DNA of 57,229 bases from Pectobacterium brasiliense (lineage in GTDB: Bacteria; Pseudomonadota; Gammaproteobacteria; Enterobacterales; Enterobacteriaceae). Location of the stretch: NCBI RefSeq assembly GCF_013449685.1, contig NZ_JACDSF010000028.1:1-57229 (forward strand), given 5' to 3'. Position numbers and translations under genes: made by a program. Of the stretch, positions 3,680-48,803 are shown in pieces (within the stretch, counting starts at the first letter, position 1; each line of letters opens with the position of its first letter). The notes beneath the pieces are model-generated. The model did no database searches, had not been told where the DNA came from, and was given only the letters and a program-made list of their open reading frames with translations.

Positions 3680-3709
3680 TCGATGTATGTTTCAGTCTCA
3701 GCGTGATTG

Positions 3710-3735
3710 ATGGGTGGCTTTGCCACCCATTTTTT
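3710..3735 (+). terminator. Terminator after miaB
   Basis: A perfect 9-bp stem (ATGGGTGGC at 3710-3718, GCCACCCAT at 3722-3730) has a 3-base loop and a run of T. It directly abuts the dispersed repeat copy that follows. Confidence 0.9.
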
Positions 3736-3810
3736 ATGGCAGGCTATCCCTGCCTGCCACCCTCCGAGCCGTTGCTTCGCAACGTTGAAAAACGTTCCTG
3801 CGTTTTATTA
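3736..3810 (+). repeat. Dispersed hairpin repeat, copy 1
   Basis: A diverged copy of a three-hairpin intergenic element also seen at 40407-40480 and 48712-48788. Hairpin 1 is GGCAGG/CCTGCC (3738-3743 with 3753-3758). Hairpin 2 is CGTTGC/GCAACG (3770-3775 with 3779-3784). Hairpin 3 is an A-rich AAAACG/CGTTTT hairpin (3789-3794 with 3801-3806) resembling a terminator. It lies between the miaB terminator and ybeZ, in the same direction as both. Confidence 0.75.
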
Positions 3811-27594: not shown

Positions 27595-27625
27595 GCAAAA
27601 AAAACCCGCCATAGGCGGGTTTTCA
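27595..27625. terminator. Terminator between crcB and cspE
   Basis: AACCCGCC/GGCGGGTT with a 3-base loop. On the minus strand it ends in eight T, so it terminates cspE strongly and crcB more weakly. Confidence 0.88.
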
Positions 27626-27639
27626 CGAAATCGGTATAA

Positions 27640-27849
27640 TTAAATAGCGTTAACGTTAGCAGCTGAAGGACCTTTGGCACCGTCAGTGATTTCGAACTCT
27701 ACACGCTGACCTTCAGCCAGAGTTTTGAAACCATTGCTCTGAATGGCAGAGAAGTGTACGAACACATCTTTGCTACCATCTTCAGGAGTGATGAAACCGA
27801 AGCCTTTAGACTCATTGAACCACTTAACACTACCTTTAATCTTAGACAT
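27640..27849 (-). CDS. cspE: Cold-shock-family protein CspE
   Basis: Small nucleic-acid chaperone and transcription antiterminator. The cold-shock domain carries RNP1 (KGFGFITP) and RNP2 (VFVHFSAI) and fills all 69 residues; the sequence differs from E. coli CspE at only a few positions. The start is ATG at 27849 ([10 protein letters not shown]) with AAGG upstream; an in-frame ATG ten codons earlier lacks homology. Confidence 0.96.
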
Positions 27850-28066
27850 CAAACTTACCTTTACATGAATGAAAGACACAAAATCTGTGTCAGGTACAGT
27901 ACAACAATAGATTGGCCTTTTGTCCAGTTGAAGTTGGATAAAAAGTGATAAAAGTCGCTAAAAATGTATACCGCGCAACTCTGGTGTCCTATTTTAACCC
28001 GATGCAGAACGCAGAGAGTTCAGTTCTGGCCAATTCATCACTTTTTACGATATGAAGGAAGGCATA

Positions 28067-40222: not shown

Positions 40223-40406
40223 TGGCCATCCCCTCCACAAACAAGTGCTTCATGGTACTTTTGACTTCTATGCAAAAGCAAGCGGACAAGGGCGTTGTAG
40301 GTGCCTGACGCAGGTTTTTTTATGACGCAGTAAACGAAATTAAAAATGCTTCTGATGTTTTTGGGAAATAGGCTAGTAAGGATAGCCAACATTGCTCCAG
40401 TTTTTT

Positions 40407-40480
40407 ATGGCGGGCTATCCCTGCCCGCCACCCTTCGGGCCGCCGCGAGCGGCGTTAAAAATTGCTCCAGGCAATTTTTT
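40407..40480 (+). repeat. Dispersed hairpin repeat, copy 2
   Basis: The clearest copy of the element. GGCGGGC-TATCCCT-GCCCGCC forms hairpin 1 and GCCGC/GCGGC hairpin 2. AAAATTGC/GCAATTTT with a TCCA loop and six T (40457-40480) forms hairpin 3, which would pass as a terminator. It ends about 40 bases before gcvR and points toward it. The string ATTGCTCCAG plus a T run also occurs just left of the element (40391-40406), suggesting a partial second copy. The rest of the dapA-gcvR gap shows nothing else I can name. Confidence 0.8.
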
Positions 40481-40522
40481 ATGTTTACCATGTGATTAAT
40501 GGGAAAAAAGACAGGAAGCATG

Positions 40523-41074
40523 ATGTTGCCAAGCTCGCAAGAACACTATCTGGTTATTACCGCACTGGGAGTCGATCGCCCCGGTATTGTCAATGCGATT
40601 ACCCGCCACGTCAGTAGCTGTGGCTGCAACATCGAAGATAGCCGTCTTGCTATGCTGGGCAAAGAGTTCACCTTCATTATGCTGCTGTCCGGTAGCTGGA
40701 ACGCGATAACGCTGATTGAATCAACCCTGCCGCTGAAAGGCGCGGAGATGGATTTGCTGATCGTGATGAAGCGGACGGAGTCACAGGCCCGCCAGCCAAC
40801 GCCTTCTACCGTCTGGGTGAAGGTTGACGTTGCCGACTCCCCTCACATCATCGAGCGTTTTACCGATTTGTTCGATTCTCACCAGCTCAACATTGCTGAG
40901 CTGGTTTCAAAAACCCAGCCCGCCGAGGGTGATAAGCCGCCGCAGCTGTATATTCAGATTGCCGCACACAGCTCTGCCACGCTGGATAGCTCAATTATTG
41001 AGCCAGCCTTTCATCAGCTATGTACAGAACTGCACGCACAAGGCAGTATTAGCGTCGTTAACTATGCCCAGTAG
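40523..41074 (+). CDS. gcvR: Glycine cleavage system transcriptional repressor GcvR
   Basis: Accessory repressor that binds GcvA and blocks activation of gcvTHP. Two ACT domains occupy residues about 8-85 (HYLVITALGVDRPGIVNAIT) and about 95-175 (VDVADSPHIIERFTDLF). ATG at 40523 has AGGA six bases before it and gives 183 residues; ATGs at 40499 and 40520 are alternatives. Upstream lies a hairpin repeat that could attenuate it. bcp follows. Confidence 0.93.
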   Translation: MLPSSQEHYLVITALGVDRPGIVNAITRHVSSCGCNIEDSRLAMLGKEFTFIMLLSGSWNAITLIESTLPLKGAEMDLLIVMKRTESQARQPTPSTVWVKVDVADSPHIIERFTDLFDSHQLNIAELVSKTQPAEGDKPPQLYIQIAAHSSATLDSSIIEPAFHQLCTELHAQGSISVVNYAQ

Positions 41075-41165
41075 TATTTGTGCCCAATAGCATAACGCTG
41101 CCATTATTATTGCAAATAGCATGGGTATATCCACAGCATGAAGAGAAATAAGACGGAGAGTCGTG

Positions 41166-41633
41166 ATGAACACACTGAAAGCCGGTGATATCGCACCGAA
41201 ATTTAGCTTGCCCGACCAAGATGGCGAACAAGTAAATTTAACCGACTTCCAGGGACAGAAAGTGTTGGTGTATTTCTACCCTAAAGCGATGACGCCAGGA
41301 TGCACCGTTCAGGCCTGCGGCCTGCGCGATAATATGGACGATTTGAAAAAACATGGCGTTGAAGTTCTCGGTATTAGCACGGACAAATCAGAAAAACTGT
41401 CCCGCTTCGTCGAGAAAGAAGTCTTAAATTTCACGCTGCTTTCTGATGAAGATCATCAGGTTTCAGAAGGATTTGGCGTTTGGGGAGAAAAAACCTTCAT
41501 GGGGAAAACCTATGACGGTATTCATCGTATCAGCTTCTTGATCGACGAAAACGGCAAGGTAGAGAAGGTTTTTGACGACTTCAAAACCAGTAACCACCAC
41601 GACATCGTTCTCGATTATCTGAAAAACGCCTGA
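41166..41633 (+). CDS. bcp: Thioredoxin-dependent thiol peroxidase (Bcp)
   Basis: Peroxiredoxin reducing hydroperoxides. The peroxidatic cysteine is in MTPGCTVQACGLRD (Cys46) with the resolving cysteine five residues later (Cys51), the Bcp arrangement. It has 155 residues; ATG at 41166 with GGAGAG upstream, and GTG one codon earlier is unlikely. It follows gcvR as in E. coli. Confidence 0.96.
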   Translation: MNTLKAGDIAPKFSLPDQDGEQVNLTDFQGQKVLVYFYPKAMTPGCTVQACGLRDNMDDLKKHGVEVLGISTDKSEKLSRFVEKEVLNFTLLSDEDHQVSEGFGVWGEKTFMGKTYDGIHRISFLIDENGKVEKVFDDFKTSNHHDIVLDYLKNA

Positions 41634-41654
41634 TTCGCGGTTTTCAGCGCGTCC

Positions 41655-41682
41655 ACCGGCACCGTCATACGTGCCGGTTTTT
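41655..41682 (+). terminator. Terminator after bcp
   Basis: An ACCGGCAC/GTGCCGGT stem (41655-41662, 41671-41678) with a T run ends the gcvR-bcp unit before the accessory cassette. Confidence 0.9.
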
Positions 41683-41832
41683 CCAGAATCAGGAAAAACG
41701 CTCACAATAGTTCGTTAAATCAGATATGCGGCACAAGACCTCACCTTCTCTTTCTGCTATACCACAGTAGACCAACATACAACGTCATCGTGAGATGCGA
41801 GTAACTCAGTCAAATAAGGCAATCAAATCATC

Positions 41833-42999
41833 ATGAAAACGGTAACCAAAAGCGATCATCTAAGCCATATAGTAATTGAAGGATATAAATCAATTGCTAG
41901 CTGCGATCTGCGCATGGGCTGCCTGAATGTGCTGATTGGCGCAAATGGTGCGGGAAAGTCGAATTTCATTGGCTTTTTCAGACTCATCGCTACGTTATTG
42001 GATCTGCGTTTACAACTGTTAATCAGTAAGTCTGGTGGCCCTGATGCGTTATTACATTTTGGCCGTAAAAAAACGGAAGTGCTGAAAGGCGAACTCTATT
42101 TCGGAAATAACGGGTATAAATTCGCACTAGAACCCACCAACGACAACCGTATGATGTTTCAGAAGGAAACTCTACGGTGGGAAATGAATAATGATGAGAA
42201 GACTCCCCGTTCAGGCAATATTGTAACAAGTGAACAAGATAATCGTTCTGGTCATTTTGAATCCGTAGCAGGAGATGATCGTTCACATTATTTTGATCCT
42301 TTAAACGAAGACGATCATTCCAGGATAGAAAAATACACGCTTCCTGCTATGCGTCGCTGGCGGGTATACCATTTCCATGACACCAGCGAGAGCGCCAGAG
42401 TCAAACAGATTCACCGCATTAATGATAATGACTATTTACGAGAAGACGGTGCCAATTTAGCCGCATTTCTATTTCGTCTGCAAAAGAATCACACGGCACA
42501 TTATCAGCGTATTGTGAAAACGATTCAGATGGTCGCTCCTTTCTTTGGCGATTTTTATCTCCGTCCTACGCCGGATAACCCCGACAGTATTCAGCTTGAA
42601 TGGGTCGAAAAAGATCAGGATATGCCCTTTAACGCCCATGAACTGTCCGATGGCACGCTACGTTTTATTCTGCTGGCGACAGTACTGCTCCAACCTGAAA
42701 CTTACATGCCCAGCGCTATCATCATCGATGAACCTGAATTAGGCCTGCACCCTTATGCCATCAACGTGCTCGCTGCACTCATCAGAAGTACAAGCGAACA
42801 GCACCAACTTATTGTTTCAACACAATCTGTTGAGTTGGTTAATGAATTCGAAGCCGAAGACCTGATCGTCGTGGATAAACATCTTGGTGCCTCTACGTTT
42901 AAACGTTTGGATCAAGATTCACTGCAAGAGTGGCTGGAAGATTACAGTTTAGGAGATCTGTGGAAGAAAAACATACTTGGCGGGAGGCCACAACAATAA
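41833..42999 (+). CDS. OLD-like AAA-family ATPase of a two-gene cassette
   Basis: A 388-residue ABC/SMC-like ATPase of the AAA_15/AAA_21 group. Walker A is GANGAGKSN (about residues 37-45). The signature-like ELSDGTLRF (about 278-286) precedes Walker B AIIIDEPELGLHP (about 303-315) with its catalytic Glu. The switch segment is VSTQSVELVNEF, where many relatives have His in place of Gln. Between the P-loop and signature is a charged 200-residue arm (about 60-260). It ends two bases before a DUF4276 gene. The DNA is visibly richer in A+T than bcp or bepA. It resembles the ATPase partner of OLD/PARIS-type defence pairs; a defence role is inferred. Confidence 0.88.
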   Translation: MKTVTKSDHLSHIVIEGYKSIASCDLRMGCLNVLIGANGAGKSNFIGFFRLIATLLDLRLQLLISKSGGPDALLHFGRKKTEVLKGELYFGNNGYKFALEPTNDNRMMFQKETLRWEMNNDEKTPRSGNIVTSEQDNRSGHFESVAGDDRSHYFDPLNEDDHSRIEKYTLPAMRRWRVYHFHDTSESARVKQIHRINDNDYLREDGANLAAFLFRLQKNHTAHYQRIVKTIQMVAPFFGDFYLRPTPDNPDSIQLEWVEKDQDMPFNAHELSDGTLRFILLATVLLQPETYMPSAIIIDEPELGLHPYAINVLAALIRSTSEQHQLIVSTQSVELVNEFEAEDLIVVDKHLGASTFKRLDQDSLQEWLEDYSLGDLWKKNILGGRPQQ

Positions 43000-43001
43000 T
43001 C

Positions 43002-43664
43002 ATGACGAGGATTAATGTTTTTGTTGAAGGACAAACGGAAGAAACATTCGTTCGCGATACGTTGGCTCCTTACTTTGTGCGGCAAGGTATTTACCTTAAT
43101 GCGATTCTGGCACAAACCAGCCGAGGGCATAAAGGTGGAATTGTCAGCTATGGAAAAGTGAAACATCAAATAACCAGGCTGTGTCAGCAAGATAAGAAAG
43201 CCTGGGTAACCACGCTGATTGATTATTATGGTCTTCCGACTGATTTCCCAATGGTTGGGCAAGGCAAACCTGTTAATGAAGATATATATTCGTGGATCGA
43301 AGATGTGGAAAATGCCTTTGATGCCGATATTGCTCAGCCTAATTTTATCGCCAATTTTTTATTACATGAATTTGAAGCGTTGCTATTTTGTGATCCAGAA
43401 AAATTCGCAGACTGGCTTGAAGACAAAAGGCCAATAGCCGAACTTAATACTATTAAACTGGCATTCGATTCTCCAGAATCTATTAACAATAGCCCACAAA
43501 CCGCCCCTTCAAAACGTATTCTTGCGGCGATACCGGAATATCAAAAGACACTGCATGGGCCGCTGATTGCCGCTGATATCGGGCTGGATACGATTCGTCG
43601 GCAATGTCCTCACTTTGAAGGCTGGCTACAGCGTCTGGAAGCATTGAAACCGCCTCAGCCCTGA
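43002..43664 (+). CDS. DUF4276 (Toprim-like) partner protein
   Basis: A 220-residue protein matching DUF4276. Toprim-like signatures are the N-terminal FVEGQTEETF (conserved Glu, about residues 6-15), WVTTLIDYYGLPTDFP (acidic pair, about 67-82) and LLHEFEALLFCDP (about 122-134). Such proteins are thought to be metal-dependent nucleases partnered with SMC-like ATPases. ATG at 43002 follows the ATPase stop by two bases. GGAGG is 14 bases upstream, so reinitiation after the ATPase gene is likely. A longer opening to 42930 overlaps the ATPase gene and is rejected. No terminator is evident after it. Confidence 0.87.
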   Translation: MTRINVFVEGQTEETFVRDTLAPYFVRQGIYLNAILAQTSRGHKGGIVSYGKVKHQITRLCQQDKKAWVTTLIDYYGLPTDFPMVGQGKPVNEDIYSWIEDVENAFDADIAQPNFIANFLLHEFEALLFCDPEKFADWLEDKRPIAELNTIKLAFDSPESINNSPQTAPSKRILAAIPEYQKTLHGPLIAADIGLDTIRRQCPHFEGWLQRLEALKPPQP

Positions 43665-43815
43665 TGGATTTATCTCTGTGCGATAAGATATCTTCCATGC
43701 AGACTTCCACCTTCACCACGTTTTTCCCGCTCGGGCATTTCTTTGTCTGCCATCGCTGGCTAAGATAGTCAGCAGAATGTTTTCATGTTAGCTGTTGATA
43801 AGGTTATCTTCCGTT

Positions 43816-45279
43816 ATGTCTATTCGGTTAAGAAAAACGGTCATGTCCGTCCTGTTTGGGACATTACTGGCTGGCAACCTGCTTCCTGCTCAGGCCGACA
43901 CGCAGGATCGGCTGCCGGATATCGGCACCACCGCAGGCGGTACGCTCAGTATCAATCAGGAGCTGGAAATGGGCGATTTTTACGTCCGCCAACTGCGGGC
44001 GGGTGCGCCGCTTATCAACGATCCGCTGCTGTCCAATTACATTAATCAGCTCGGTAACAGATTGGTCAAACAGGCTGATTCGGTGCGTACACCGTTCCAT
44101 TTTTACCTAATCCGCAATGACGACATCAACGCCTTCGCCTTCTTCGGCGGCAACGTCGTGCTGCATTCCGCGCTGTTCCGTTATGCCGATAGCGAGAGCG
44201 AGCTGGCCTCGGTGCTGGCACATGAAATCTCTCACGTTACCCAACGCCATCTGGCACGCAGCATGGAATCACAGCAGCGTAGCGCCCCGCTCACCTGGGT
44301 CGGTGCGCTCGGTTCTATTCTTCTGGCAATGGCCAATCCACAGTTGGGAATGGCGGCGCTCAGCGGCACGCTGGCGGGCGCGCAGCAGGGCATGATTACG
44401 TTCACGCAGGCGAACGAGCAGGAAGCCGACCGCATCGGTATTCAGGTATTGCAGCGCGCGGGCTTTGATCCACAGGCCATGCCGAACTTCCTGCAAAAGC
44501 TGGCGGATCAATCACGCTATGCTTCCAGACCGCCGGAAATGTTGCTGACTCACCCCTTGCCGGAAAGCCGTCTGTCCGATGCCCGCAACCGCGCCAACCA
44601 GATGCGCTCAACGCCAGTACAATCTTCTCAGGATTTCCTGTTCGCCAAAATACGCACCTTTGGTATGTATGGCTTACCGGAGCGCCCGCTGAACAACGAT
44701 CTGCTGGAGCAATGGGAAAAAGGCAACGTGCGAGAGCAACTGGCCGCGAAATATGGCCGCGCGATACAGCTTTATCAGGCGAAGAAGTACGATGAAGCCC
44801 GTAATGTGCTGCAACCGCTGCTAAGCAGTGCGCCTGAAAATCCGTGGTTTCTGGATATGATGACGGATATCGATATAGGACAAAGCCGCGCGACACAGGC
44901 TATCGCCCGTTTACAAAACGTGCCCGGAATGCAGGCGAACCCGGTACTTCAGCTTAATCTGGCGAATGCCTATGTGGAAGGGAAACAGCCCGCTGCCGCC
45001 AGCAAAATACTCTATCGCTACACCTACGCGCACCCTGACGATTCGAACGGCTGGGATCTGCTGGCACAAGCCGCAGCAGCACAAGGACAGCGGGCAGAAG
45101 AACTGGCCGCGCGAGCGGAGAGTCTGGCCCTCAGCGGTCAGCTCGATCAATCTATTCGGTTACTGAGCAACGCGAGTTCACTGGTTAAATTGGGGAGTCT
45201 GGAACAGGCGCGTTACGACGCCCGCATTGACCAGCTCCGCCAGTTGCAGCAACGCTTCCGCCAGTACCAGAAATCCTGA
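43816..45279 (+). CDS. bepA: Periplasmic metalloprotease/chaperone BepA
   Basis: M48 zinc protease with TPR repeats that promotes or degrades stalled LptD and other outer-membrane proteins. A signal peptide (about 1-27, ending PAQA) precedes the HEISH zinc motif (in [12 protein letters not shown]) and a third ligand Glu in [10 protein letters not shown]-terminal TPRs follow (about 310-480). ATG at 43816 gives 487 residues, exactly the E. coli length. In E. coli perM lies before bepA; here the ATPase/DUF4276 cassette occupies that side. Confidence 0.95.
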
Positions 45280-45293
45280 TAAGGAGCATGACG

Positions 45294-45665
45294 ATGACAC
45301 CGTCCTCAACCCAAACACCTGTGACGATTTACCACAACCCGCGCTGTTCCAAGAGCCGTGAAACGCTGGCGCTGCTACAGGAACACAATATTACGCCCAA
45401 CGTCGTGCTCTATCTCGACACGCCGCCCGACGCCGTAACGCTGGCTCAGCTTATCAAGCAGTTGGGCTTGACTAGCGCGCGCGAATTGATGAGAACCAAA
45501 GAAGAGAGTTATCAGCAGTTGGGGCTGTCCAACACCGCACTAACGGAAGCACAGCTGATTCAGGCGATGATCGATAACCCGAAGCTCATCGAGCGACCTA
45601 TCGTCGTGGCACAGGGTCAGGCACGTATTGGTCGTCCGCCGGAACAGGTGCTGGAAATACTGTAG
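45294..45665 (+). CDS. yfgD: ArsC-family arsenate reductase-like protein YfgD
   Basis: Glutaredoxin-dependent ArsC-type protein of 123 residues. The catalytic cysteine sits in YHNPRCSKSRETL, and IERPIVV carries the arginine near residue 105. ATG at 45294 lies seven bases after AAGGAG; an ATG at 45288 is too close to it. It follows bepA after 14 bases. Real substrate uncertain. Confidence 0.93.
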   Translation: MTPSSTQTPVTIYHNPRCSKSRETLALLQEHNITPNVVLYLDTPPDAVTLAQLIKQLGLTSARELMRTKEESYQQLGLSNTALTEAQLIQAMIDNPKLIERPIVVAQGQARIGRPPEQVLEIL

Positions 45666-45702
45666 TTGTAGGTAAAACGATAGCCGTAAGCGATCCTCAA
45701 CG

Positions 45703-45725
45703 ACGATCGTTAATAACGATCGTTA
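45703..45725. repeat. Tandem palindrome next to hda stop
   Basis: ACGATCGTTA and TAACGATCGT are arranged back to back around a single base, each containing the palindrome ACGATCGT with a GATC site. It lies in the convergent yfgD-hda space, abutting the hda stop codon. It could act as a weak bidirectional terminator or a protein site. Confidence 0.6.
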
Positions 45726-45726
45726 A

Positions 45727-46428
45727 CTACAGCCCGAGGATCTCTTTCACAAAAGGAATGGTCAGCTTGCGCTGTGCGGTGATGGAAGCACGGTCGAGCT
45801 GATCGAGCGTCATAAATAACGTGCGCATTTCCCGATCAAGACGCTTAAGCAGAAAACGGCTGACGTCTTCCGGCAATTCGAATCCGCGCAGTCTGGCACG
45901 CAGCTGTAGCGCTTCCCCTTTTTCGTCATCCGACAATGGTTGCAGCTTGTAGATTTGTCCCCAATCAAGGCGAGAAGCCAGATCGGGCAGACGTAAATTC
46001 AACTGACGCGGCGGACGATCGCCAGTAATCAACAGTCGGGCACGCCCTGTTTCCTGAATGCGGTTATACAGATTAAACACCGCCATTTCCCACTCTTCAT
46101 CACCTGCGATAGATTCGATATTATCGATACACACCAGCGCCAGTTGCTCCATCCCTTCCAGCACATCGGGTACAAAGTAGGCACGTTTATCCAACGGCAC
46201 ATAGCCCACCGCACGTTCCTGACGCGACAATTCGGCGCAGGCAGCATGCAGCAGATGGCTGCGCCCGCCCCCTTCGCGTGACCAGAAATAGATGTAGCTA
46301 CCATGCTCCTGATACAAAGCATTATTGACGGCGGCAAGAAGAGACGCGTTTTCACCCGGATAGAAACTGGCAAATGTTTCGTCATCGGGTAAGTAGAGTG
46401 GCAATGAAAGCTGTGCCGGCGTGTTCAG
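45727..46428 (-). CDS. hda: DnaA regulatory inactivator Hda
   Basis: AAA+ protein that, with the beta clamp, stimulates DnaA-ATP hydrolysis after initiation. The clamp-binding motif QLSLPL is at residues 5-10. AAA+ motifs include [14 protein letters not shown] (Walker A-like), LVCIDNIE (Walker B), RPP in TGDRPPRQL and the sensor arginine in [10 protein letters not shown] choose CTG at 46428: GAGGTGA is ideally placed before it, and the 233-residue product begins [16 protein letters not shown] like E. coli Hda, for which a CUG start has been reported. A longer ATG form runs into uraA and lacks homology. Confidence 0.92.
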
Positions 46429-46534
46429 AATCACCTCAAGCAAAACGTGCAGGAAACGGATCGAGTTTATCACAGAAACCGGCCCCTGTTGAGGACGCGA
46501 TACGCACGGCCTCAACAGGGGAGGAATGACGCGG

Positions 46535-47824
46535 TTATGAACGCGCGTCGTTCTCTTCCGGCGCATCGAGGATCTCTTCCTCTTTGCGGAACAGGCTGAT
46601 GACCTTAAACACCAGACTCATGCCGATACCGACAACCGTCGCCAGCGCCATGCCCTTCAGTTCAGTCGAGCCCAGATGCACTTTGGCGCCGCTGACACCG
46701 ATGATCAGAATCACGGAGGTCAGGATCAGGTTCTGCGCTTTGTTGTAATCCACTTTGGATTCAATCAGCACGCGAATACCAGATGCACCAATTACGCCGT
46801 ACAGCAGCAGCGACACGCCGCCCATAACGGGAACCGGTACAGCCTGAATCGCCGCCGCCAGTTTGCCCACGCAGGAAAGCAGAATCGCCAGGATCGCCGC
46901 ACCGCCGATCACCCAGGTGCTGTACACTTTGGTAATCGCCAGCACACCGATGTTTTCACCGTAGGTTGTGTTCGGTGTGGAACCGAAGAAGCCAGACAAC
47001 ACGGTAGAAATGCCGTTGGCGAACATAGAGCGGTGCAGCCCCGGTTCACGCATCAGATCTTTCTTCACGATATTCGCCGTCACCACCAGGTGACCAACGT
47101 GTTCCGCGATCACCACCAGCGCCGCAGGCAGAATCGCCAGAATGGCAAACCACTCAAAACGTGGCGTATAGAATGTCGGCATCGCAAACCAGTGCGCTTC
47201 ACGAATCGGCGTCAAATCCACCACGCCCAGTGCGAACGACAGCGCATAGCCTGCCAGTACCCCGATTAGAATCGGGATGATCGCCAGAAAACCGCGAAAC
47301 AGCACCGAGCCCAGAATGGTGATTGCCAGCGTCGCCAGTGAAATCGTCACCGCGGTAGAATCGACAGAAGCGCCATCGGCAGGCAGTAGCCCAGCCATTC
47401 CCGCCGCAACACCGGCCAGTTCAAGACCGATAACGGCGACAATCGCCCCCATCGCCGCAGGGGGGAACAGCACATTCAGCCAGCCAGTGCCCGCTTTCTT
47501 AACAATCAGCGCCACCAGACAGAACAACACGCCGCACATAATGAAGCCACCCAGTGCAACTTCATACCCCAGCGGCAACAGCAGCAAAACCGGGGAAATA
47601 AACGCGAAGCTCGACCCCAAATACGCCGGGATTTTGCCCTTACAAATGAATAAATAAAGCAGCGTGCCCACACCGTTGAATAACAGTACGGTTGCCGGAT
47701 TGATCTTGAACAGAATGGGTACCAGAACGGTAGCGCCAAACATCGCGAACAGATGCTGGAAACTCAACGGGATGGTTTGTAACAAGGGTGGTCGTTCACT
47801 TACCCCGATGGCGCGACGAGTCAT
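46535..47824 (-). CDS. uraA: Uracil:proton symporter UraA
   Basis: Inner-membrane uracil permease of the NAT/NCS2 family with 14 membrane segments; 429 residues, as in E. coli. The motif [14 protein letters not shown] carries the substrate-binding Glu/His (about residues 241-254), and [14 protein letters not shown] the second (about 279-292). ATG at 47824 ([13 protein letters not shown]) matches E. coli. It works with upp, just upstream, but a terminator separates them. hda follows. Confidence 0.97.
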
Positions 47825-48020
47825 CTTCAATATCCTCTGTAGTGTTGTTATCTAGTGTTGCTATTTATGTGTGCAGGTCGACCCGCACTTATTATCACAG
47901 CCAGACGCATCCCACCCCACCGTAGCGAAGCAGGAGAATGGTGACTGCTGATGTATAAAAGAACCGCGTGTGACGTAACACAGGCCGTGGCACACCATAG
48001 GAAATACTTAGGTTTACGCC

Positions 48021-48048
48021 AAAAAAAAGCCGACTATCAAGTCGGCTT
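48021..48048 (-). terminator. Terminator of upp
   Basis: On the minus strand AAGCCGAC-TTGATA-GTCGGCTT is followed by eight T in total, six bases after the upp stop and about 200 bases before uraA. Confidence 0.93.
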
Positions 48049-48053
48049 ACCTG

Positions 48054-48680
48054 TTATTTCGTACCAAATATTTTATCGCCCGCATCACCCAGGCCCGGCA
48101 TGATGTAACCCTGCTCGTTGAGGCCTTTATCGATGGATGCCGTGTAAAGTTCGACATCTGGGTGGGCTTTTTCCAGTGCGGCAATCCCTTCTGGCGCCGC
48201 GACCAATACCAGTACCTTAATGCTGTGACAACCTGCTTTTTTCAGCAGATCGATCGTCGCAATCATTGAGCCACCGGTTGCCAGCATGGGGTCAACCACC
48301 AGCGCCATGCGCTCTTCGATATTGGAAACCAGCTTCTGGAAATAAGGAACAGGCTCCAGCGTCTCTTCATCACGGTATATGCCGACAACGCTGATACGCG
48401 CGCTAGGCACATTTTCCAGCACGCCGTCCATCATCCCCAACCCTGCACGCAGAATCGGTACGACGGTAATTTTCTTGCCTTTGATCTGATCGACTTCAAC
48501 CGGACCGCACCAGCCATCAATGGTGACTTTTTCGGTTGCCAGGTCAGCCGTCGCTTCGTAAGTCAGCAAACTTCCCACTTCGGAAGCCAGCTCACGAAAA
48601 CGCTTCGTGCTAATATCGTTCTCACGCATCAAACCCAGTTTGTGTTTGACGAGTGGGTGTTTCACCTCGACGATCTTCAT
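48054..48680 (-). CDS. upp: Uracil phosphoribosyltransferase
   Basis: Salvage enzyme converting uracil and PRPP to UMP. It has 208 residues, the E. coli length, starting [19 protein letters not shown]. The PRPP loop is [18 protein letters not shown] (about residues 127-144), and the C-terminal [18 protein letters not shown] contacts uracil. GGGGAG lies upstream of the ATG; an in-frame extension to 48722 is not supported. Its leader has an upp-type initial U tract followed by a hairpin repeat. Confidence 0.97.
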
Positions 48681-48711
48681 CATTATCTCCCCATCGGCTA
48701 AGTGGACGGAC

Positions 48712-48788
48712 AAAAACGCCAAGCGCGTTTTTAAACACCGCTTGCGGCGGCCCGCAGGGCGGCGGGCATGAGAGCCCGTCGTAAAAAA
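48712..48788 (-). repeat. Dispersed hairpin repeat, copy 3, within the upp leader
   Basis: Reading the minus strand, ACGACGGGCTCTCATGCCCGCC, GGGCCGCCGCAAGCGG and AAAAACGC-GCTT-GGCGTTTTT correspond in order to the three hairpins of the copy at 40407-40480. The last hairpin with its U tract ends 31 bases before the upp ATG. Confidence 0.78.
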
Positions 48789-48803
48789 AATCGCGGGATT
48801 ATA
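48783..48803 (-). promoter_or_regulatory. upp promoter -10 and U-rich initial transcribed region
   Basis: On the minus strand a perfect TATAAT (48803-48798) is followed after five bases by GA and eight T (48792-48783). E. coli upp has the same layout (TATAAT, five bases, GATTTTTTTTG), where UTP-sensitive start selection and reiterative transcription reduce expression when UTP is high. The -35 is poor. I infer the same control here. Confidence 0.75.

Follow-up and report, generated by a model that had tools for sequence, protein, structure and literature searches.

A short three-hairpin repeat of Pectobacterium and other Enterobacterales, commonly found behind terminator-like hairpins

Insertion sequences of the IS200/IS605 type lack terminal inverted repeats, carry a hairpin near each end, and insert 3' of a T or of a fixed short target without duplicating it. 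Enterobacterial genomes also contain short interspersed repeats such as ERIC (IRU, RU-1) and YPAL (RU-2), and some ERICs are said, in work of Wilson and Sharp from 2006 and of Sharples and Lloyd from 1990, to carry insertions of about 70 bp. This article describes a unit of about 74 nt that occurs three times in a 57,229-nt stretch of Pectobacterium brasiliense DNA (contig NZ_JACDSF010000028.1; called the window from here on). The explanation that we favour, with moderate confidence, is that the unit is a small non-autonomous mobile DNA repeat of Enterobacterales that inserts on the 3' side of a T that borders a stem-loop or lies in its loop, and that its commonest target seen in Pectobacterium and Brenneria is the T-run of an intrinsic terminator. 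Within that explanation, the family itself, its structure and covariation, insertion next to terminators, the existence of empty sites, and the arrays are established.

Four other systems enter the comparison. REP/REPIN elements, which are associated with RAYT transposases, have a GTAG-type tag beside the palindrome (PMC2817692); group IIC introns insert at intrinsic-terminator motifs (PMC4424553); SPRITE of Streptococcus pneumoniae is a dispersed terminator-like repeat (PMC10969869); and boxC is an intrastrand-triplex motif (PMC4666352).

The three window copies and their family

The copies in the window and the sites that received them are:

3709..3735, plus strand: intrinsic terminator hairpin with T-run, 3' of a MiaB-type radical SAM gene; landing site of copy 1 (10-bp stem by consensus scan, -13.8 kcal/mol, abutting T6)
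3736..3809, plus strand: element copy 1 (70.4 bits by cmsearch; stems 3737-3744/3752-3759, 3770-3775/3779-3784 and 3789-3795/3800-3806)
40401..40406, plus strand: T6 run before copy 2, read from the letters; tandem units occupy the same place in other Pectobacterium
40407..40480, plus strand: element copy 2, upstream of gcvR (91.7 bits; stems 40408-40415/40423-40430, 40431-40433/40437-40439, 40441-40445/40450-40454 and 40457-40466/40470-40479)
48783..48790, minus strand: T8 run before upp, landing site of copy 3, directly downstream of a TATAAT box at 48798-48803 (minus)
48710..48782, minus strand: element copy 3, in the upp leader (69.5 bits; outer stem 48781-48760, middle stem 48749-48736, A/T-rich stem 48732-48712)

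An earlier note on this DNA had claimed three intergenic sites with a common hairpin plan, and all three are confirmed. A cmsearch of the window with covariance model R1, which was built from 15 own-genome copies with the three window copies among its training rows, returned exactly these three, the next match reaching only E 0.12. Independently of the model, a stretch of 42 nt is 90% identical between copies 1 and 2, one of 57 nt is 79% identical between copies 2 and 3, and BLAST with 141 nt around copy 2 found 21 places in the genome, namely itself, copy 1 (E 1e-9), and 19 others, while missing copy 3. Folding is better than that of shuffled sequences by 5.3, 2.9, and 2.1 standard deviations for copies 1, 2, and 3, respectively (copy 1, 3736-3808: -28.1 kcal/mol, z -5.3).

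Well-preserved copies are 72-77 nt long and have no coding capacity. Their order is A(T/C), a GC-rich hairpin, a CCCTNCGGGCC-like core with a 3-bp hairpin, a second hairpin, GTT(G/A/C)AAA, and a last hairpin with few GC pairs, in which an A-run pairs with a T-run as the outer stem. The three-hairpin plan proposed earlier stands as it was given, with four stems if the small CCC/GGG stem is counted; its extent for copy 3 (48712-48788) needs correction, since position 48788 takes in part of the T-run at 48783-48790, which lies outside the unit. The distance from the unit's end to the next start is about 128 nt for ybeZ (to the first ATG of the frame), 18-42 nt for gcvR depending on the ATG chosen, and 26 nt for upp.

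The genome that holds the window, whose GcvR is 97-99% identical to ten named Pectobacterium records, gave 49 matches to the model at E<=0.001 and 56 at E<=0.1. In a search of 79 family-level genomes under stricter filters, 36, with the own genome among them, gave a match at E<=0.001. Among named genomes, 20 of 22 carry the unit. Copies number 32-98 in each of seven Pectobacterium, 30, 77, and 91 in three Brenneria, 35 in Samsonia, 29 and 37 in two Dickeya, 85 in a record labelled Serratia, 12 in Hafnia, 8 in Symbiopectobacterium, 6 in Prodigiosinella, 3 in Lelliottia, and 1 each in Edwardsiella and Lonsdalea, with 0 in Providencia and Proteus. The record with 85 copies (JADMXW010000014.1, labelled Serratia marcescens) has an upp leader that is nearly identical by eye to those of Candidatus Symbiopectobacterium loci, and its label may be wrong. 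Units can follow one another head to tail without a gap, as in the runs of three 74-nt units in B. alni and in P. betavasculorum. The suggestion of a dispersed, mobile, REP-like unit is supported by the 49 own-genome matches and by differences in presence and absence between species. Hairpins are common in intergenic DNA, and one might suppose that unrelated GC-rich hairpins resemble one another by chance; this supposition is refuted by the same matches, by the exact 74-nt arrays, and by the occupied and empty alleles described below, and we give it practically no credence.

Pairing is kept while the sequence changes. In the alignment of the 15 copies, which is not fitted to the model, 92.6% of cells are paired and both sides have changed in 15 of 26 pairs (52 such cells); none of 500 shuffles was as high on four of five measures and slid versions scored far lower, the fifth measure, further pair types, being matched by 43 of 500 shuffles. 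Larger alignments, which unlike this one are fitted to the model, have changes on both sides at 22 of 26 pairs (50 own copies) and at 21 of 26 (58 copies from three relatives). Because differences from copy to copy may have been inherited from source copies, one orthologous place was compared across taxa. At the gcvR site, in 13 taxa (10 distinct sequences), 98.5% of cells are paired and four pairs have changed on both sides, a number reached by 2 of 500 shuffles; of the five measures, that of further pair types does not exceed the shuffles (292 of 500). Several species have an array at this site, where units might convert one another and so mimic compensation. At the upp site, in 12 taxa, variable columns make up 0 of 48 stem positions versus 8 of 25 unpaired ones (Fisher p 8e-5). 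Within the limits of few and related sequences, these comparisons support the view that the structure is constrained once the unit is in place. Selection on structure, which had been argued from pairing kept despite sequence change, is supported by the strong covariation of the stems and by compensatory changes also inside one orthologous site; where chance matches without compensatory changes had been named as the refuting outcome, 49 matches and compensation were found.

Landing sites and empty sites

Among 50 own-genome copies at E<=1e-4, five are tandem followers, which leaves 45 array heads. A T-run of at least five directly precedes the unit in 21 of the 45, and in 17 of these 21 the run abuts a terminator-like hairpin (-7 kcal/mol or better). 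In three relatives (40 loci, 58 units, drawn from the best-scoring matches listed and partly orthologous to own ones), 29 of 42 heads have the T-run, 25 of them with the hairpin. As background, a hairpin stands at 45 of 187 other T-runs in about 268 kb of own-genome sequence (Fisher p 4e-7 versus own heads and 2e-10 versus those of the relatives), where background runs are at least six long while heads have at least five, and background stretches partly overlap. The hairpin sequence differs from site to site, and the hairpins therefore belong to the host. By a crude call of open reading frames, 20 own T-run heads could be classified: 16 come shortly after the 3' end of a same-strand gene (35-106 nt from stop to unit in 15 of the 16), and 9 of the 20 face a downstream start while 11 do not. 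The T-run, rather than the next gene, seems to determine the unit's orientation. Placement before genes, in 5' leaders, as the earlier note had it, finds no support as a rule; it describes the three copies of the window better than it describes the family.

For 14 own sites, the two flanks were joined and compared with seven named Pectobacterium genomes, and 20 matches, chosen as running through the junction, were fetched. The element is absent from 18 of these, which cover 10 of the 14 own sites; the remaining two (L171 and L187) keep a fragment of it. A T-run of five or more follows the hairpin in 17 of the 18 empty sites, and T4 in one (L181). For example, P. carotovorum has GCCGACAGGCTTTTTTTATTTTTG where the own genome has GCCGACAGGCTTTTTT-[unit ending in T7]-ATTTTTG. 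Since the empty alleles carry both hairpin and T-run, both existed before the insertion. Two sites (L170 and L179) continue after the T-run with nine letters identical to the unit's first nine, a match that could reflect excision or coincidence.

A location behind genes would also be expected of an ordinary DDE-type miniature inverted-repeat transposable element (MITE), like ERIC or RUP, if proximity to terminators came only from selection against other insertions: the unit is short, non-coding, intergenic, and present in many copies, and insertion at the 3' end of a gene is mild for the host. We nevertheless regard a DDE-type MITE as quite improbable. Terminal inverted repeats were not found between the two ends in the 15-copy alignment, where ATGGCG.. 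and ..TTTTTT are unpaired by eye; orientation to the T-run is fixed and abutment on the hairpin is exact, against the low background frequency of hairpins; and the ERIC and YPAL junctions fit, again by eye, a target duplication of 0 or 1 nt, which T-runs hide elsewhere.

These junctions are among several further targets. YPAL/RU-2 is interrupted by three of the 50 own copies, each time at CGCGCCAT^CCTTGGCG, where its palindrome has its tip. Ten have ERIC flanks, six of them near one internal site (alignment positions 40-49), three at GCCGCCTT^CCTGCAAC, and one unplaced, and one further copy abuts an ERIC end. The ERIC consensus is matched by the flanks, not by the unit, and YPAL/RU-2 (168 bp) was likewise rejected as the unit's identity, being its host. 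Five own copies (L104, L106, L118, L119, and L088) appear by eye to lie inside another dispersed palindromic repeat, ..GCTTGCGACACG../..CGACGTGGCGCAAGC.., and their flanks gave no ERIC or YPAL match above shuffles. Six of the 50, including one tandem follower and the copy beside an ERIC end, fall outside all target classes.

Ribosomal loci are a target in other genomes of the family, where four of nine loci adjoin 5S rRNA. In Escherichia coli K-12, a unit of 76.2 bits lies between rrnB T1 and T2 (L117:439-511, minus strand); the spacer between these terminators is used in many vectors. Sequence flanking this unit resembles, by eye, the 3' end of the 5S rRNA gene, as if the unit had been inserted in a duplicated 5S tail. 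A similar stretch (query, 111 bases of L108) occurs in 3950 of 5426 E. coli genomes, with 80-99% identity at the best places and no annotated feature under the ten best places listed. Taken together, the junctions suggest a common rule: insertion follows a T that borders a stem-loop or lies in its loop.

The upp and gcvR leaders

Two of the window copies lie in leaders where the unit can be followed across taxa. The T-tract that received copy 3 corresponds to the UTP-sensing start of upp in E. coli; at the TATAAT box before it, no promoter was recognised by a strict scan. This tract is occupied by the unit in Pectobacterium and Samsonia and by a weaker-scoring form (28-38 bits) in four Brenneria, whereas Dickeya, Prodigiosinella, Lonsdalea, Edwardsiella, Hafnia, and Providencia have the empty form TATAATCC(C/G)GCGATTTTTTT or TATAATCTCGCGATTTTTTT, and Symbiopectobacterium-like loci have a different, partial form. 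Upstream of copy 2, window positions 40290-40406 hold by eye the apparent remains of older tandem units (e.g., TTAAAAATGCTTCTGATGTTTTT); some other species have three units there, and the site seems to be a decayed array. Remnants shortened at the 5' end exist at gcvR.

Together with its T-run, the last hairpin resembles a weak, perhaps bidirectional terminator, although a strict consensus scan called no terminator from it at any of the three window sites. At T-run sites it would act as an extra terminator, second behind the host's own, and in the upp and gcvR leaders it may have been kept by selection; the conserved stems in both leaders suggest a role there. It is conceivable that the units are, first of all, conserved leader attenuators, whether delivered to particular genes or evolved at them. 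The invariance of the upp stems in 12 taxa, the same-site compensation at gcvR, and the closeness of both units to start codons (18-42 nt) speak for attenuators; the low share of own T-run heads that face a start (9 of 20), the tail of the window's upp unit, which is T5 followed by G with no terminator called, and the array at gcvR, where conversion between units could mimic compensation, make them unlikely as the explanation of the family. Elsewhere in the window lie a cspA thermoregulator leader (27596-28003, minus strand; Rfam RF01766) and a tRNA gene (30-101).

Movement of the unit and its likeness to known systems

In the favoured explanation, the non-autonomous unit would insert immediately after a T that borders a stem-loop or lies in its loop, and a transposase of the IS200/IS605 type (HUH, Y1) would move it in trans. 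Once the unit is inserted, T-runs lie before and behind it and its downstream end is terminator-like; this would make a new landing site, from which head-to-tail arrays of units of about 74 nt would arise. The unit probably moves as single-stranded DNA by means of an IS200-like transposase, a mover that we infer. It is not filed as a member of IS200/IS605, since a Y1 element sharing its ends did not turn up. Resident IS200-type copies show the same plan of terminator in, terminator out. All 11 fetched loci (L026 and L228-L237) lie just downstream of a hairpin, with hairpin sequences differing; a script found a T-run of at least three after the hairpin in 10 of them (L231 has only TT), and right ends have by eye a hairpin and T-rich tail in 10, L235 being a partial gene.

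Several observations weigh against this explanation. A Y1 transposase was not found in nine copy-rich genomes (29-98 copies each), nor was an autonomous copy that shares the unit's ends, all 11 of the 17 Y1 matches that were read by eye having other ends. The 24 of 45 own heads that lack a T-run of at least five sit in ERIC, YPAL, the other palindromic repeat, or unclassified places, so that terminators are not the sole target. A hairpin is missing at four of the 21 own T-run heads, and the hairpin scored at the gcvR copy (-8.1) is no obvious terminator. Finally, with a T-run on both sides after insertion, a target duplication cannot be told from the unit's own end. More generally, 22 genomes were searched for a resident Y1 partner and 23 for a reverse transcriptase, and neither visibly tracks copy number; Y1_Tnp matches are present in 8 of the 22 and bear no obvious relation to it, a judgement made without a computed statistic.

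A reverse transcriptase would be the partner if the unit were instead a retroposed small RNA (SINE-like), a terminated transcript that was reverse transcribed and inserted at terminator T-runs. Units at T-runs do resemble copies of such a transcript, with a 5' A and a 3' hairpin with U-run, the 5'-shortened remnants at gcvR fit, and group IIC introns use the same kind of target (PMC4424553). Retroposition is nonetheless very doubtful: among 23 genomes searched, 9 have no reverse-transcriptase domain, including six copy-rich ones (G080, G084, G088, G089, G091, and G093), units in ERIC and rrn loci end in TTTGT without a U-run, copies shortened at the 3' end exist as well (L102), and Rfam gave no group II intron match over the copies examined.

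To return to single-stranded DNA movement, a more daring form of it sees in the unit a mobile terminator that homes to terminators, recognizing a stem-loop plus T in single-stranded DNA and offering its own terminator end as the next target. This form, which we put forward tentatively, would cover the 74-nt arrays behind Pectobacterium genes, the insertions in ERIC and YPAL, and the E. coli hairpins that separate rrnB T1 from T2; the upp unit of Pectobacterium, Brenneria, and Samsonia would have entered the T-tract where the upp transcript begins and been kept as a structured leader, maybe as an attenuator.

The kind of element is already known, a short enterobacterial interspersed repeat. A stem-loop or terminator target with a self-renewing landing site was not found in the literature searched, nor was any paper recognised for the unit or its terminator target, most subscription papers lying outside the scope of that search. 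Small interspersed repeats are common in enterobacteria, but a target rule is rarely so clear. If the rule holds, it offers a sequence-level reason for repeats piling up at the 3' ends of genes, it unites seemingly unrelated short sequences such as ERIC and YPAL insertions and the rrnB T1-T2 spacer, and it provides natural experiments on how an added terminator affects neighbouring genes, with matched empty sites in sister species. The element may change where messages end through its stop-signal-like hairpin, and a preference of IS200-type elements for terminators becomes testable.

Rfam gave no family match above the gathering score over the three window copies or the units of the nine loci from relatives. 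Like the unit, E. coli boxC is a GC-rich intergenic repeat, a copy of which lies in the fabI region; as a name for the E. coli member it was dropped, since it denotes a triplex motif and the fabI-region stretch has no model match. SPRITE, likewise a dispersed terminator-like repeat, belongs to another organism. Group IIC introns share the kind of target but are ribozyme retroelements with a reverse transcriptase, as opposed to a unit of about 74 nt. REP/REPIN elements are likewise small palindromic units with many copies and tandem arrangements; the 15-copy alignment has no GTAG-type tag, and in place of a RAYT gene the single Y1 gene of the own genome looks IS200-like by eye. Elements of the IS200/IS605 type resemble the unit in having hairpins near both ends and no inverted repeats between the ends. 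Before the unit only a T is constant, with T-runs at some copies and T^C at others, and the junctions that allow a judgement show little target duplication or none. The unit differs in having neither a transposase gene nor ends seen in common with those elements. ERIC and YPAL are, like the unit, short enterobacterial interspersed repeats; they differ from it in sequence, size, and ends, and they host units internally, the unit being a guest in both.

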